From: Methylosinus sp. H3A
Lineage (GTDB): Bacteria; Pseudomonadota; Alphaproteobacteria; Rhizobiales; Beijerinckiaceae
Reading direction: 5' to 3'
Assembly (NCBI RefSeq): GCF_015709455.1
Contig: NZ_JADNQW010000005.1
Location: 992,001 to 1,056,000 of the forward strand
Length of the DNA: 64,000 nt
Shown one piece after another: positions 33,620 to 38,592 of this stretch. Position 1 is the stretch's first letter, and every line of letters starts with the position of its first letter. The position numbers and the translations under genes were made by a program. The notes below the pieces were generated by a model. That model ran no database searches. It was given only the letters and a program-made list of their open reading frames with translations, and was not told where the DNA came from.

Positions 33620-34096
33620 TCAGTGCGCCAGCGCCTTCACTTCCGCAATGCCGGCGGAGACGAAATCGGTTCCGGCGACGCCCTTGCGCAGCACGGCCTC
33701 GGCGACCTTCACCGCGGCGTCCGCGGCGCTGGCGCGCACTTCGGCGGCGGCTTGAGCCTCGGCCTGGGCGATCTTGTCCTCGACCTGCTTGGTCCGGCGG
33801 GTCACATAGTCCTCGAGGCGTTGACGCGCCTCAGTGGCGAGCAGCTCGGCCTCGCTTTTGGCCTGAGCGACGATCGCCTTGGCCTCGATCTCGGCGTCTT
33901 CGCGCTTCTTCTCGAAGGAGGCGAGCAGGCTCTCCGCCTCGCTGCGCAGGCGCTCGGCCTCGGCGAGCTCGCCCTTGATGCGGCCGACGCGCGCATCGAG
34001 CGCGGCGCCGAGCTTTTTATGCGCGCCCACATAGAGGAGCACGCAGAGGAAAATGCCGAAGCCGATGGCGACGAAAAGTTCCGCGTCGTAATGCAT
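33620..34096 (-). CDS. atpF: ATP synthase Fo subunit b
   Basis: A 158-residue stator subunit. One N-terminal membrane helix (about 7-27, FVAIGFGIFLCVLLYVGAHKK) leads to a long charged coiled coil (RLRSEAESLLASFEKKREDAEIEAK and so on) that reaches F1. With atpF' directly before it, the organism makes the b/b' heterodimer usual in alphaproteobacteria. It is the last gene of atpI-B-E-F'-F; a strong terminator follows 26 bases on. Confidence 0.94.
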   Translation of the reverse strand: MHYDAELFVAIGFGIFLCVLLYVGAHKKLGAALDARVGRIKGELAEAERLRSEAESLLASFEKKREDAEIEAKAIVAQAKSEAELLATEARQRLEDYVTRRTKQVEDKIAQAEAQAAAEVRASAADAAVKVAEAVLRKGVAGTDFVSAGIAEVKALAH

Positions 34097-34110
34097 GGCC
34101 TGTCCCCTGC

Positions 34111-34707
34111 TCAGCTCGCCTTGATGTTGCGGAATTCGCTCTGCAGCGTCTCAGCGGCGAGGCGGGCGCCGGTCAGCTTCTCTAGAATGGAGCCGGCCGC
34201 CTCGGTGGCGATCTGCTCGACATGCGACAGCGCCTCGGATTTGGCGGTGAGAATCTGCGCCTCGGCCTCGGCGACCTTCTTGGCGAAGGCGGTCTCTTCC
34301 GCAGCGCGGCGCGTGGCCGTCTCGGCGGCGGCCTGCTGCTGCGCGGCGCGGCCGATCTCCTGCGCCTGCGCCTTGGTGGCGCGCAGAGTCTCGTCATGCT
34401 CGGCGGCGGCGGCCTGCGCCTTCCCCTGCAGCTCGCGAGACGCGAAGAGATCGCTCTCGATGCGGCTCTCGCGCTCGCTCAGGATCGAGCCGATGCGCGG
34501 CAGCGCGATGCGCGACATGAGGACGTAGAGGACGCCGAAGATCAGCGCCAGCCAGACCAGCTGCGGCGCGAAATTATTGGTGTCGAAGGGCGGAAAGTCG
34601 CCCCCGCCGTGATGCTCGACGGTCCCATGCCCCGCGGACTCATGCGTCGCGCCTTGCGCGGCGTGCGGCGCCGCTTCCTCGGCGGCGGCGAGAACGATAT
34701 TCGCCAT
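34111..34707 (-). CDS. atpG: ATP synthase Fo subunit b'
   Basis: A 198-residue second b-type stator subunit. A histidine-rich N-terminal leader of about 45 residues comes before the single membrane helix (about 48-68, LVWLALIFGVLYVLMSRIALP), followed by the conserved RIGSILSERESRIESDLFASREL and a coiled coil rich in alanine and glutamate. It forms the b/b' pair with atpF, 14 bases downstream. The long leader with HAAQGATHESAGHGTVEHHG is a feature of alphaproteobacterial b' chains. Confidence 0.92.
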   Translation of the reverse strand: MANIVLAAAEEAAPHAAQGATHESAGHGTVEHHGGGDFPPFDTNNFAPQLVWLALIFGVLYVLMSRIALPRIGSILSERESRIESDLFASRELQGKAQAAAAEHDETLRATKAQAQEIGRAAQQQAAAETATRRAAEETAFAKKVAEAEAQILTAKSEALSHVEQIATEAAGSILEKLTGARLAAETLQSEFRNIKAS

Positions 34708-34785
34708 GACGGCTCCGAAACCTCTCGAGTGCGTTCAAATGCGACGAAGGCCCGGAGCGCTTTGGCCCCGGGCCTCCGAAACGGA

Positions 34786-35013
34786 TCACTTCAGATAGAG
34801 CAGGATCGCGATCAGAAACGCGAAGATGCCGAGACCTTCGGCGAGCGCCGCGCCGATGATGGCGTTGGTGAACTGGCCGGCCGCGGCCGACGGATTGCGC
34901 AGCGCGCCATTGACGAAATTGCCGAAAATCAGACCGACGCCGATAGCGGCGGCGCCCGTGCCGATCGCGGCGAGGCCCGCGCCGATCAGTTGGAAGGAGG
35001 AAGCATCAGCCAT
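34786..35013 (-). CDS. atpE: ATP synthase Fo subunit c
   Basis: A 75-residue proteolipid that forms the proton-carrying ring. Two membrane helices with the polar loop (about RNPSAAAGQ) between; the glycine-rich first helix is [20 protein letters not shown]. The ion-binding acidic residue is the glutamate in [19 protein letters not shown]. It has no sodium-type motif, so it should be proton driven. It lies between atpB (52-base gap) and atpF' (78-base gap); the larger gaps allow extra translation of this high-copy subunit. Confidence 0.96.
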
Positions 35014-35065
35014 TGGTAACTCCTGCTCTTAGCTCTGTGGGCGACTATTTATTGTTGGATGTTTA

Positions 35066-35806
35066 TCAGTGGCCCGGGTGGATCGCGTCATTGAGATAGA
35101 CGCAAGTGAGGACGGCGAAGACGAACGCCTGAAGACAATTGACGAGCAGCTCCAGCGCATACATCGCCACGACCGCGAGGATCGGAATGGGCGCGAGCGC
35201 GGCCCAGGCGCCGGCGCCGAGCAGCATCACCACGAAGCCGCCGAACACCGCCAGCGTGATATGGCCGGCGAGGATGTTCGCGAAGAGACGAACGGAGAGC
35301 GACACCGGGCGCGAGAGGAAGGAGATGATCTCGATCGGGATCAGCACGACCAGCACCGGCGCCGGAACGCCATGCGGCACGAAGAGCTTCAGAAAGCCGA
35401 AGCCATTGCGATAGAGCCCGTAGAGGATCACCAGAAGGATGACGAAAGCCGCGAAGGCGAAGGTGATGACGATCTGGCTCGACAGCGAGAATGTGTAGGG
35501 GACGAGGCCGATCAGATTCGACATCAGAATGAAGGTGAACAGCGTGAAGACGAAGGGGAAGAAGCGCATCCCTTCCTTGCCCGCCGTCTGACGCACCGTA
35601 TTCGCCACGAATTCATAGAGAACTTCGGCGAGCGCCTGTCCGCGGCCAGGCACCAGCGCGCGCTTGGACGTCGTGAACAGGGTGAGGATGATGGCGGCCG
35701 AGGCCGCGAGCAACATATAGAGCGCGGAATTGGTGAAGGAGACGTCGACGCCGTTGATGAAGTAAGGCGCAATGCGTTGGAGCTCGAACTGCTCGATAGG
35801 ATTCAT
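35066..35806 (-). CDS. atpB: ATP synthase Fo subunit a
   Basis: A 246-residue inner-membrane proton channel subunit with about five to six helices. The essential arginine lies in SRPVSLSVRLFANILAGH and the GLVPYTFSLSSQIVITFAFA motif precedes it; ELLVNCLQAFVFAVLTCVYLNDA closes the protein. The N terminus MNPIEQFELQRIAPYF is of the alphaproteobacterial type. It is encoded between atpI and atpE on the same strand. Confidence 0.96.
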   Translation of the reverse strand: MNPIEQFELQRIAPYFINGVDVSFTNSALYMLLAASAAIILTLFTTSKRALVPGRGQALAEVLYEFVANTVRQTAGKEGMRFFPFVFTLFTFILMSNLIGLVPYTFSLSSQIVITFAFAAFVILLVILYGLYRNGFGFLKLFVPHGVPAPVLVVLIPIEIISFLSRPVSLSVRLFANILAGHITLAVFGGFVVMLLGAGAWAALAPIPILAVVAMYALELLVNCLQAFVFAVLTCVYLNDAIHPGH

Positions 35807-35873
35807 CGCTCGATCCCGGACGGCGCGCCCGGCCCTTCATCTCCGCGGCGCCGAGGGAGTCGGGCCGCCCGTT

Positions 35874-36209
35874 TCATCCGTCGCCTCGCGCGTTTTTCGA
35901 CGCGGCGAAGCGAAACACATTGTAGAAGCCCGCGGCGACGCCGAGCCCCAGGAACAGGACCAGCAGCCACGGCTTGGCGCCCAACCAGAGATCCGCCTGC
36001 CAACCGATCAGCGCGCCGACGAGAATCGCCGCCACGAATTCGGACAGCACGGTGAAGCCCGCGCTCAACGCCTTTCCGAACGACCCTCCGACCGGCAAAC
36101 CACCGCCAATCTCGGCGCGTCGCTCCGCTTCCTGCTTGCCGAGCGCGGTCTGGAGCCTTTCCAGTCTCGCGCGCAGCTCGTCGTCGCTCTCGTTCTTGTC
36201 CGCTCTCAT
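35874..36209 (-). CDS. atpI: ATP synthase assembly/associated protein AtpI
   Basis: A 111-residue small membrane protein that begins the Fo operon. A charged N-terminal half (residues 1-45) is followed by two membrane helices, ALSAGFTVLSEFVAAILVGALIGWQAD and LLVLFLGLGVAAGFYNVFRFA. This matches the AtpI/gene 1 family implicated in c-ring assembly or magnesium uptake. The 67-base gap to atpB and the shared strand support one transcript. The operon promoter should lie in the 436 bases upstream. Confidence 0.9.
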   Translation of the reverse strand: MRADKNESDDELRARLERLQTALGKQEAERRAEIGGGLPVGGSFGKALSAGFTVLSEFVAAILVGALIGWQADLWLGAKPWLLVLFLGLGVAAGFYNVFRFAASKNARGDG

Positions 36210-36645
36210 CGGCTCTCTCCCTCGCGCAAAAGCTCAAAAGCACGCGCGAGCAGCATAGATGATTGCCGAAGAAACGCCCGGACAGGGGCGACGGAAGGGA
36301 TTTCGACGCGACGCGATATGGGCCGGGCGGCCAAGTCGTTCGAGCCGCGCGCAACATATGGGCGGCGTCCATTCGTGTCAAGCCGCAGCCGTCGCCGCGA
36401 ATCGCCCGGAAAACTAGGGTTTTTCCGCGATTGTCCAATTCTTGCGCAGACGCTTTTTCGCGGTTGCGAGATGGCGCGGCGGCCGTGACGCGCGAAAGCC
36501 GCCCTTCGCTCGGCCCTGGGGGCGTCGCGATGGGCGGCTCGCTTTCTCGCGTCCCCGGGAGCAGCGGGCGCTGGAAAGTCGTGACGCGCCTGCCGCCAAT
36601 GGATCGGCAGGCGCGGGAAGGGGCGGCCGGCGCGGGAGGAGCGCG
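36210..36645. other. Intergenic region between pmoC and atpI
   Basis: 436 bases without a convincing gene. It must hold the promoter of the atp operon. Close to the pmoC stop is a perfect 10-base-pair hairpin, gcgcctgccg (36586-36595) with cggcaggcgc (36605-36614), which has no T-run; it could end the pmoC transcript or stabilise it. Otherwise nothing recognised. Confidence 0.6.
36586..36614 (-). terminator. Hairpin downstream of pmoC
   Basis: Perfect inverted repeat of 10 base pairs with a 9-base loop, 32 bases after the pmoC stop. GC-rich stem and no T-tract, so a factor-dependent terminator or 3' stabiliser is the most that can be said. Confidence 0.45.
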
Positions 36646-37422
36646 TCAGCCGATGACCGCCGCGACCCCGTCTTCGCCGAGCAGCGCCTTTATGCGCATC
36701 AAAAGTTGCAGCACGACGCCGAACACGCCGAGCGCCATCCAGCCGAAGAAGACGAAGCCCCAATGCAGCGGCGCGACGAACAGCTCCTCCATGAACCAGA
36801 AGGTGTGGCCCCATTCGTTGAGGCCGACATTGGGGATGATCATGAAGGGCCCGACCGCGACGATCAGATAGGCCAGCGAATAGCCTTTGGCGAAATAGGG
36901 GGTGCGCGTCTTGGCGTGGAAGAAGGCGCCCACCGCCATGATCGAATAGATCGGATAGCTCATGTAGAATTCGATGATATGCGACGGGGTGAAATCGGTG
37001 TCGCGGATCACCGTCATATGCCAGGTGCCGTCCTGCTCGGTGAAGAAGCTGGCGCCCCAATAGATGGCGATGGCGTAGATCGTCAGCCATTTCAGATTGT
37101 CGACGAGCGCGCGGAATTCCTGCCGCGGCGTCACCGCGGACATGTCGCGGGTGCGCGTCTTCCACAAATAGCCGGCGAGGCCGAGGCCGGCGACGAGCTC
37201 CAGCGGGATCTCCGTCCAGAGGATCGACAGCCAATAGGTCTGGAACTCCGGCGCGAAGGAGTCGAGGCCGGCGCGCCAGCCGAAAATCTGCTCATAGATC
37301 CGCACGATCAGGTAGAATGTGCAGAGCGCCGCGGCGCCGATCCAGAACGGCTTCATATCGACGATCACATCCGTGTCGTCCGCGACGCCGGCCTTGCCGG
37401 CCGTCTCCGTCGTGAGGCTCAT
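36646..37422 (-). CDS. pmoC: Particulate methane monooxygenase subunit C, solitary copy
   Basis: A 258-residue membrane subunit of particulate methane monooxygenase with about six helices. All metal ligands known from the Methylococcus enzyme are present at a constant offset of 25: D131, H135 and H148 (D156, H160, H173 there; the CuC site, in EQDGTWH and FTPSH) and N202, H206, H220 (N227, H231, H245; the CuD site, in NEWGH and APLH). Normal length and a good AGGAGAG ribosome site. No pmoA or pmoB is adjacent: atpI is downstream and a LysR gene is divergent. Lone pmoC copies are known in type II methanotrophs. AmoC is excluded by gene context only weakly, but methanotroph origin fits better. 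Confidence 0.93.
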   Translation of the reverse strand: MSLTTETAGKAGVADDTDVIVDMKPFWIGAAALCTFYLIVRIYEQIFGWRAGLDSFAPEFQTYWLSILWTEIPLELVAGLGLAGYLWKTRTRDMSAVTPRQEFRALVDNLKWLTIYAIAIYWGASFFTEQDGTWHMTVIRDTDFTPSHIIEFYMSYPIYSIMAVGAFFHAKTRTPYFAKGYSLAYLIVAVGPFMIIPNVGLNEWGHTFWFMEELFVAPLHWGFVFFGWMALGVFGVVLQLLMRIKALLGEDGVAAVIG

Positions 37423-37617
37423 GTTTCTCTCCTTTTTGCGTCTTGCGCCCGCGCGCTCTTCCGCGCGGCCGTCAGGAGAGGTAAGGTCCGTCTCGGCTTC
37501 AGGTAAAATGCATTGTTTTCATCGTGCTATTCGCATTTTTCAGTGGCGTCGGAGGCGCCGATCTGGCGTCATCTTCACGCGTGATCTCGGATCGCGCGAG
37601 GGGCGAAGGGCGGACAT
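37423..37617. promoter_or_regulatory. Divergent promoter region pmoC / LysR gene
   Basis: 195 bases with an AT-rich island at about 37500-37540. It contains the near-palindrome aaaatgcattgtttt (37505-37519, core ATGCAT) 83-97 bases before pmoC. LysR proteins often bind such T-rich/A-rich interrupted dyads in divergent promoters, so this is the best candidate site. No clear sigma-70 promoter pair was assigned for either gene. Confidence 0.4.
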
Positions 37618-38592
37618 ATGACCGAGCTGCGGAACTTCGATCTCAATCTCCTCGTCGCCTTCGATTTTCTCATGGAGGAGCGCAATGTCTCGCGCGCGGC
37701 GCAGAGGATGTTCATCACCCAATCGGCGATGAGCCATGTGCTGCAACGCCTGCGCCAGCAGCTCGACGATCCGGTGCTGGTGAAGACGCCGCAGGGCATG
37801 AAGCCGACCCAGCGCGCGCTCGCGCTCGTCGAGCCGGTGGCGGCGATATTGAGCGAGGTCGAGCAGGTGATCCGCGGCTCGAAGGCGTTTTCGCCGGCGA
37901 CGACGCAGCGGCGCTTCACCATAGCGACGAATGATTATGTCGAGTTCTGCCTGCTGCCGCCGTTGATGAAATCGGTGAGCCGCCAGGCGCCCAATGTGGA
38001 GATTCATCTCGTGCAGACATCGGGCTCGCTGCGTGAGGCGGCGGACGCCGGCGATGTCGATCTCGTCATCGGCTTCGATGTGATTTTGGATTCGACGCCC
38101 TATGTGCGCCGCGAGCGTCTCTACACAGACCGCATCGTCTCGCTGGTGCGCCAGGACCATCCCGATTTTCCGAGCGACGAGCCGACGCTCGAGCAATTCG
38201 TCGCGGCCAAGCATATGCTGATGTCGCGCCGCGAGGCCGGCACCGGGATCATCGACGATTGGCTGGAGCAGCGCGGCCTCGCGCGCAAGGTCGCGCTCGT
38301 CGTGCCGAATTTTCTCTCCGCTCCTTGGATATTGGCGAGCACCGATCTCGTCTTCTCGCTGCCCTTGCGCATCGCCGAGCATTTCGTGCGTCTGGCGCCG
38401 CTGAAGATTTTGGAGATACCGATCGAATTCCCGACCTATGATCTGCTGATGGTCTGGCACTCGCTGCAGGACCGCGAGCCGGCCCACGCCTGGCTGCGCC
38501 AAGAGATCGTGGAGATTTGCCGAGGCGTCGTCGCGGCGCCGCGCGAGGAAGCGCCGCGGCCGGCGCGCGCGAAGGGTCGAGAGCCGGCGTGA
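37618..38592 (+). CDS. LysR-family transcriptional regulator divergent from pmoC
   Basis: A 324-residue LysR-type regulator of the NodD-like branch. Winged helix-turn-helix at about 8-65 (FDLNLLVAFDFLMEERNVSRAAQRMFITQSAMSHVLQRLR, quoted as landmarks LNLLVAFDFL and QSAMSHVLQRLR), then a two-lobe effector domain beginning RRFTIATNDYVEF. ATG 37618 follows AGGGCGG. LysR regulators commonly control the gene divergent from them, so pmoC is the obvious candidate target, with copper, methane-derived metabolites or oxygen as unknown signals. The C-terminal 25 residues are a basic, low-complexity tail. Confidence 0.88.
   Translation: MTELRNFDLNLLVAFDFLMEERNVSRAAQRMFITQSAMSHVLQRLRQQLDDPVLVKTPQGMKPTQRALALVEPVAAILSEVEQVIRGSKAFSPATTQRRFTIATNDYVEFCLLPPLMKSVSRQAPNVEIHLVQTSGSLREAADAGDVDLVIGFDVILDSTPYVRRERLYTDRIVSLVRQDHPDFPSDEPTLEQFVAAKHMLMSRREAGTGIIDDWLEQRGLARKVALVVPNFLSAPWILASTDLVFSLPLRIAEHFVRLAPLKILEIPIEFPTYDLLMVWHSLQDREPAHAWLRQEIVEICRGVVAAPREEAPRPARAKGREPA

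Follow-up and report, generated by a model that had tools for sequence, protein, structure and literature searches.

The LysR-type regulator gene, and not the ATP synthase genes, is the informative and conserved neighbour of the solitary pmoC gene of Methylosinus sp. H3A. The window analysed is a stretch of 64,000 nucleotides, in which pmoC lies on the minus strand at 36646..37422 and the regulator gene is divergent from it on the plus strand at 37618..38592. On balance we lean towards the reading that this pmoC encodes an alternative PmoC, switched by the LysR protein, which would replace the operon PmoC in the pMMO under some condition.

The solitary pmoC was identified by its reading frame, its Pfam profile and its alignment with the PmoC of Methylococcus capsulatus (1yew chain C). 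The frame gives 258 aa from the ATG without internal stops, so the protein is intact and of full length. The Pfam AmoC profile (PF04896) was matched with 346.9 bits against a cut-off of 26.7, over positions 5-243 of 245. In the alignment, D131, H135 and H148 pair with D156, H160 and H173 of the Methylococcus protein, and N202, H206 and H220 pair with N227, H231 and H245. We take these six residues to be the CuC and CuD ligands. They are present in 5/5 orthologs and in all six comparison groups. The earlier note, made from the sequence alone, had described a full-length PmoC under selection as a metal protein, with six ligands at a constant offset of 25 from the Methylococcus numbering. Both statements hold, since all six aligned pairs keep the offset, every ligand is retained and the NG86 dN/dS is below 1. 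The dN/dS was 0.087-0.161 among the orthologs (10 pairs), 0.037-0.157 for operon 1 and 0.033-0.059 for operon 2. The solitary PmoC is under purifying selection, weaker than that on operon 2. A pseudogene or decaying copy was rejected, as the gene is intact in 5/5 carriers with dN/dS well below 1.

A search of the whole genome (G000, 5.38 Mb, with the window at C5:992001-1056000) found four pmoC, three pmoA and three pmoB genes. The four pmoC genes belong to two pmoCAB operons (equal in scores and in the printed frame), to one pmoCAB2 and to the solitary locus. The comparison with the operon genes that the earlier note had proposed gave 80% identity of the window PmoC to the pmoCAB copies and 64% to the pmoCAB2 copy. 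The window pmoC is not followed on its strand by pmoA and pmoB, and all three copies of each lie outside the window. The nearest pmoA ends at position 519370 of contig C5, about 509 kb from the solitary pmoC and about 473 kb past the window edge, so a pmoAB pair just beyond that edge, which the earlier note had allowed for, is absent. A recent duplication of the genome's own operon pmoC is disfavoured by the identity of just 80% and by the placement in the trees described below. Among the best 80 of 332 matches, the nearest named relatives at the locus are Methylosinus strains.

The regulator has 324 aa with HTH_1 and LysR_substrate domains (Pfam), and a gap of 195 bp separates its gene from pmoC. 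An operator-like element, ATGAAAACAATGCATTTTAC, lies in this gap at 37503..37522 on the minus strand and holds a T-N11-A box at 37509-37521. A second, weaker T-N11-A box is located at 37530..37542 on the same strand, 21 bp upstream of the first (the box coordinates were converted by hand). Paired T-N11-A boxes before a gene divergent from the regulator gene are the usual layout of LysR-type regulators, and the locus has the helix-turn-helix and substrate domains, the divergent gene and the boxes. The gap block is kept in 5/5 carriers and can be aligned to the Methylocystis genomes KS32 and G096. Their LysR proteins are 61% identical to the window LysR and are likewise divergent from a solitary pmoC. 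The searches at the level of the family took in 149 genomes from a larger group. The two boxes stand 21-22 bp apart in the conserved block. At 11 sites compared, nine before pmoC and two before a carbonic anhydrase gene, box 2 is present in 11 and box 1 in 10.

The strict box was found in 9/101 distinct pmoC upstream regions, where 0.07 regions were expected from mononucleotide shuffling. These are 4/34 regions classed as solitary and 5/17 from short loci, the latter being the Methylosinus solitary copies, and none of the 50 operon upstream regions carries it. Because the five Methylosinus sequences are orthologous, the nine regions stand for only about four independent lineages. With one mismatch allowed at most, the 20-base element gave six sites in 10 Methylosinus genomes, five of them in the LysR-pmoC gap. 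The exact element gave four sites in three of 39 Methylocystis genomes, and 4/4 stand before a pmoC. The reversed-pattern control gave 0 in Methylosinus, and the control in Methylocystis was also 0. The pmoC behind the four Methylocystis elements is solitary in the matching named contigs, and a LysR relative is present in 3/3 of these genomes. In KS32, one element-bearing solitary pmoC lacks an adjacent LysR gene and has ftsH and a pmoD-like gene after it, while the one LysR match of this strain adjoins its other element-bearing solitary pmoC. The earlier note had named the LysR gene as a neighbour only; the adjacency stands, and the gene is now seen as a partner conserved across two genera.

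The ATP synthase Fo genes atpI, atpB, atpE and two atpF-type genes lie downstream of pmoC at 33620..36209 on the minus strand (atpI at 35874-36209), and the LysR gene lies upstream and divergent, as first described. The order LysR-pmoC-atpI-atpB occurs in 5/10 Methylosinus genomes (G000, G004, G007, G008 and G009). It is thus not unique to the strain, a point that the earlier note wished to see checked, and the pmoC-atpI pairing is not conserved genus-wide. In three other genomes (G001, G002 and G005), LysR and atpI adjoin at about 510-535 bp with no PmoC match between them. The outer flanks match the window on both sides in G001 and G002, and on the atp side only in the stretch fetched for G005. 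No LysR match was found in G003, where just about 730 bp of contig precede atpI, or in G006 at the cut-off used. In a tree of four atp genes, the three pmoC-less genomes form one clade (96/96) beside G008 and among the carriers, and one loss is therefore the simplest account. Repeated independent acquisition of pmoC beside the atp genes would be less parsimonious on this tree, which was built from the atp genes themselves. The same three genomes have another solitary pmoC elsewhere, 78-79% identical and on a different tree branch, with no element within 400 nt upstream. A solitary pmoC of some kind is found in 8/10 Methylosinus genomes. G003 (86% complete) and G006 showed none, which indicates that the gene is not needed everywhere.

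The LysR gene does not serve pmoC alone. Among the three pmoC-less genomes its dN/dS is 0.041-0.069, so it remains under selection where pmoC was lost and has another role too. There the box is retained without the TTTTAC that follows it elsewhere, and the 20-base pattern was not found. A LysR relative (E <= 1e-80) occurs in 18/39 Methylocystis genomes, 15 of which are without the exact element. In a quick LysR tree, the pmoC-linked regulators of Methylocystis and Methylosinus did not form one supported clade. The LysR-linked pmoC genes of KS32 (L030) and G096 encode a PmoC identical to operon copies, and the M. silviterrae one (L017) groups with an operon copy; the regulator is thus not confined to a single PmoC type. 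A carbonic anhydrase gene is a possible second LysR target. In G004, the element with one mismatch starts about 80 bp before such a gene (L252:1501-2155). In Methylocystis G153, a LysR with 61% identity stands divergent from a gene closely resembling this carbonic anhydrase gene (L259:740-2424).

The 28 Methylocystis LysR loci surveyed adjoin three solitary pmoC genes, one carbonic anhydrase gene, 10 pxmA-like genes and 14 copies of an ORF that is presumably methyltransferase-like. The pxmA-like label was checked with Pfam AMO for one locus (L264) and given to the others by their printed starts. These genes are divergent from a related LysR at L261-L267, L275, L276 and L282, and a related box was aligned for three of the ten. 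The loci with the methyltransferase-like ORF, also divergent, make up a third branch of the LysR family (L268-L274, L277-L281, L283 and L284). The pxmA-like loci (10/28) resemble the window locus in a related LysR, a related box layout and an adjacent copper-monooxygenase gene. They differ in a target of the PmoA family (one Pfam-checked) and in the box sequence.

The window PmoC likely belongs to a solitary lineage common to Methylosinus and Methylocystis, as judged from protein phylogeny. Two careful trees place the five orthologs (100/100) within a clade shared with Methylocystis solitary PmoC and unplaced relatives, without operon rows and with support of 100/99 in each. The clade has 24 rows in the tree of 74 and 19 rows in the tree of 45, a few of which end near contig edges; the rows were picked by hand and gammaproteobacterial rows were left out of both trees. 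Forcing the orthologs together with the Methylosinus operon and comF-type copies was rejected (p-AU 0.022), and forcing them with the comF-type copies alone was not (p-AU 0.121). The gene names comF and grxC are presumed, being given by eye or from recall. The joint solitary lineage was absent from a quick tree with 33 phage rows, which placed the orthologs elsewhere, and because of this disagreement the placement is likely and not certain. The phage rows came from 54 of 80 viral loci, reduced to 33 after duplicates and short ones were dropped. They fell among Methylocystis rows and none joined the window clade in this quick tree, so a phage origin was rejected. Phage-encoded pmoC is alike in that it stands alone, without pmoA or pmoB, in the accessible part of the report on it (PMC7674155).

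The five orthologs are set apart from all operon-1 PmoC compared at 11/241 sites. A signature of M94, Q101, A105, D108, N109, K111 and H169 is common to most or all of the 14 solitary rows from Methylocystis; for K111 the count is 9/14, and M94 occurs also in 3/4 comF-type rows. Six of the seven sites fall within 18 residues (permutation p 2.5e-5, for sites chosen after seeing the data).

The retained ligands and the few changes speak for a product still able to do the job of PmoC, and the separate candidate regulator speaks for production under conditions other than those of pmoCAB. Together, the two favour the replacement subunit switched by LysR. In this mechanism, the solitary pmoC would be transcribed on its own and encode an alternative PmoC of full length. 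LysR, made from the divergent gene, would bind the two boxes in the 195-bp gap and may turn pmoC on upon some signal. As a subunit for particular conditions or for repair, the product would then replace the operon PmoC in a pMMO whose PmoA and PmoB come from the pmoCAB operons. A broader idea is offered tentatively, and we hold it as possible rather than probable. Type II methanotrophs may have a dedicated, separately inherited PmoC isoform, with a LysR switch serving it and very few other genes. The metal-bearing subunit of the pMMO could then be swapped on demand, as with D1 of photosystem II, and the altered segment 94-111 may tag the isoform, either for being exchanged or for some partner, FtsH for instance.

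Published expression data fit the LysR-switched replacement without proving it, and in the parts drawn on none of the genes concerned is identified as the ortholog of the window gene. In the accessible parts of these reports, the solitary pmoC2 of strain OB3b is about 450-fold below the operon pmoC during copper-sufficient growth on methane (PMC3615186). A solitary pmoC of M. bryophila is up at ambient O2 with an LFC of 3.9 (PMC12319191). Two solitary PmoC proteins were detected in strain SC2, and with ammonium one rises and one falls (PMC9600857).

A different role, as a non-catalytic sensor or copper-handling membrane protein that may act with PmoD or FtsH and never enters the pMMO, is unlikely in our judgement. 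Others have proposed regulation or sensing from the low expression (PMC3615186, repeated in PMC10171618) and a folding sensor from ftsH neighbours (PMC3794950), in the portions of these papers drawn on here. Our survey of neighbours within 4 kb lends this role some support, with pmoD-like genes at 11/40 solitary loci and 5/26 operon loci, and ftsH at 7/40 and 1/26, the single operon-set match (L038) being at a contig edge. Three of the PmoD-like proteins were matched to 6cpd. On the other side, the six ligands and E129 are retained in every PmoC group examined, only the 11 sites above separate the orthologs from operon-1 PmoC, and the ftsH and pmoD-like queries gave no match within 4 kb of the window pmoC (L135).

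In the same survey, a regulator gene lies within 4 kb at 33/40 solitary loci (eight with this LysR, 19 with an AraC-type regulator and six with another LysR) and at 0/26 operon loci. The first count is partly so by construction, since the regulator queries were picked because they recur beside solitary pmoC. A regulator could be missed at several operon loci with less than 2 kb upstream (L038, L045-L047, L051 and others), and L134 and L022 look like the same locus. With such queries and short operon upstream regions, the neighbour counts are a guide and not a test. The 40 solitary loci include two of uncertain status, which end less than 1.5 kb downstream of pmoC (L026 and L161), one cut at the pmoC start (L042), several close relatives and a pair that looks like the same strain (L162 and L019).

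Several individual loci were also observed. The ftsH gene stands on either side of a solitary pmoC at L015, L018, L021, L032, L035, L158 and L160, as reported for SC2 and Rockwell. A tandem pair of solitary pmoC genes occurs in one Methylocystaceae MAG (L014:2636-4656). A MAG contig filed under Elusimicrobia (L033) carries a Methylosinus-like pmoC-pmoA pair and is probably a binning error. Six Methylocapsa-like or other Beijerinckiaceae solitary pmoC genes lie near a different LysR (L058 and L063-L067).

We also doubt that the gene is only a redundant spare or a gene-conversion reservoir with no special role. Several of the solitary copies in Methylocystis match operon copies exactly, and one loss of the copy apparently took place in Methylosinus. 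The 80% identity to the operon PmoC of the same genome and the two-genus signature argue against homogenisation, however. The operator-like element is conserved, and the three genomes that lack pmoC at this site have another solitary pmoC elsewhere.

The earlier note had further suggested a link of pmoC with the proton-motive machinery. A sigma-70-type promoter-like site, TTGACA-N17-TATGTT, lies upstream of atpI at 36353..36381 on the minus strand with 10/12 matches, as the one site in the pattern scan of the window, where 0.4 were expected in shuffles. The pattern TTGAC[AT]-N17-TATGTT sits 151-257 bp upstream of atpI in 14/15 genomes (10/10 Methylosinus and 4/5 Methylocystis), with or without pmoC. 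An independent promoter-like site thus stands between pmoC and the atp genes. A hairpin with an 11-bp perfect stem and no T-run was found by eye at 36585..36615 on the minus strand, about 30 nt past the pmoC stop. The 150 nt past the stop fold at z -2.3, and their best local stem is another one, about 95 nt past the stop. Strong local structure follows pmoC in 5/5 carriers, at z -2.3 to -4.1 without a control set from other genes, and the five hairpins are unrelated in aligned sequence. Directly after pmoC the terminator scan flagged no site; elsewhere in the window it flagged three terminator-like sites, where 1.4 were expected. With no clean T-run and a negative scan, these structures are terminator-like at most.

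A functional unit of pmoC and the Fo genes, tying methane oxidation to the proton-motive machinery, is highly improbable, although the genes are adjacent on one strand in five of the ten genus genomes and no terminator was flagged directly after pmoC, because atpI has its own promoter-like site, hairpins follow pmoC in all carriers, three relatives lack pmoC between LysR and atpI, the pmoC-atpI gap reaches about 860 bp in G009, and the LysR-pmoC pairs of Methylocystis lie far from atp (in G096 the nearest atpB match is about 3.6 Mb away along the contig). The Fo genes were therefore judged to be outside the pmoC unit. The apparent loss of pmoC and the atp-free LysR-pmoC pairs make the ATP synthase neighbourhood look incidental, and the suggested link is not upheld.

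The existence of solitary pmoC is already in print, with ftsH or PmoD near some copies, and what appears to be new is the LysR gene with its operator-like element and the two-genus lineage. Excerpts of earlier papers note solitary pmoC across the Methylocystis and Methylosinus pan-genome (PMC7285482), PmoD beside some copies (PMC6189053) and ftsH beside others (PMC3794950). LysR occurs once in the accessible text of PMC3615186, for formate dehydrogenase, and the available passage of PMC12811070 concerns pmoCAB and copper, with none found there on solitary pmoC. In the literature searched, no report was found of LysR control of a solitary pmoC, of a pairing of LysR or the element with it, or of a solitary PmoC lineage in two genera.

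The window gene resembles the solitary pmoC genes of type II methanotrophs, such as those of SC2 and pmoC2 of OB3b, which by the available parts of the reports are full-length, without pmoAB, present at least once per genome and expressed apart from pmoCAB (PMC3794950, PMC9600857, PMC3615186). The pmoC1Gs copy of SC2 is beside ftsH and identical to the operon PmoC in the same partial source (PMC3794950). In contrast, the window copy is diverged from its operon PmoC, has LysR and the element, and has no ftsH match within 4 kb. The lone amoC of Nitrosomonas europaea is under sigma-factor control, whereas the candidate for control of the window pmoC is a LysR protein. Both are additional genes for subunit C that lie apart from the operon, and amoC, presumed to work under stress, is cited for recovery from ammonium starvation in the accessible part of PMC3615186.

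Solitary genes for PmoC and AmoC are long known, yet their role has not been settled. With a candidate regulator, a short element and strains with and without the gene at this site, the role is now directly testable. If the switchable subunit is real, the make-up of a major methane-oxidising enzyme would vary with conditions.
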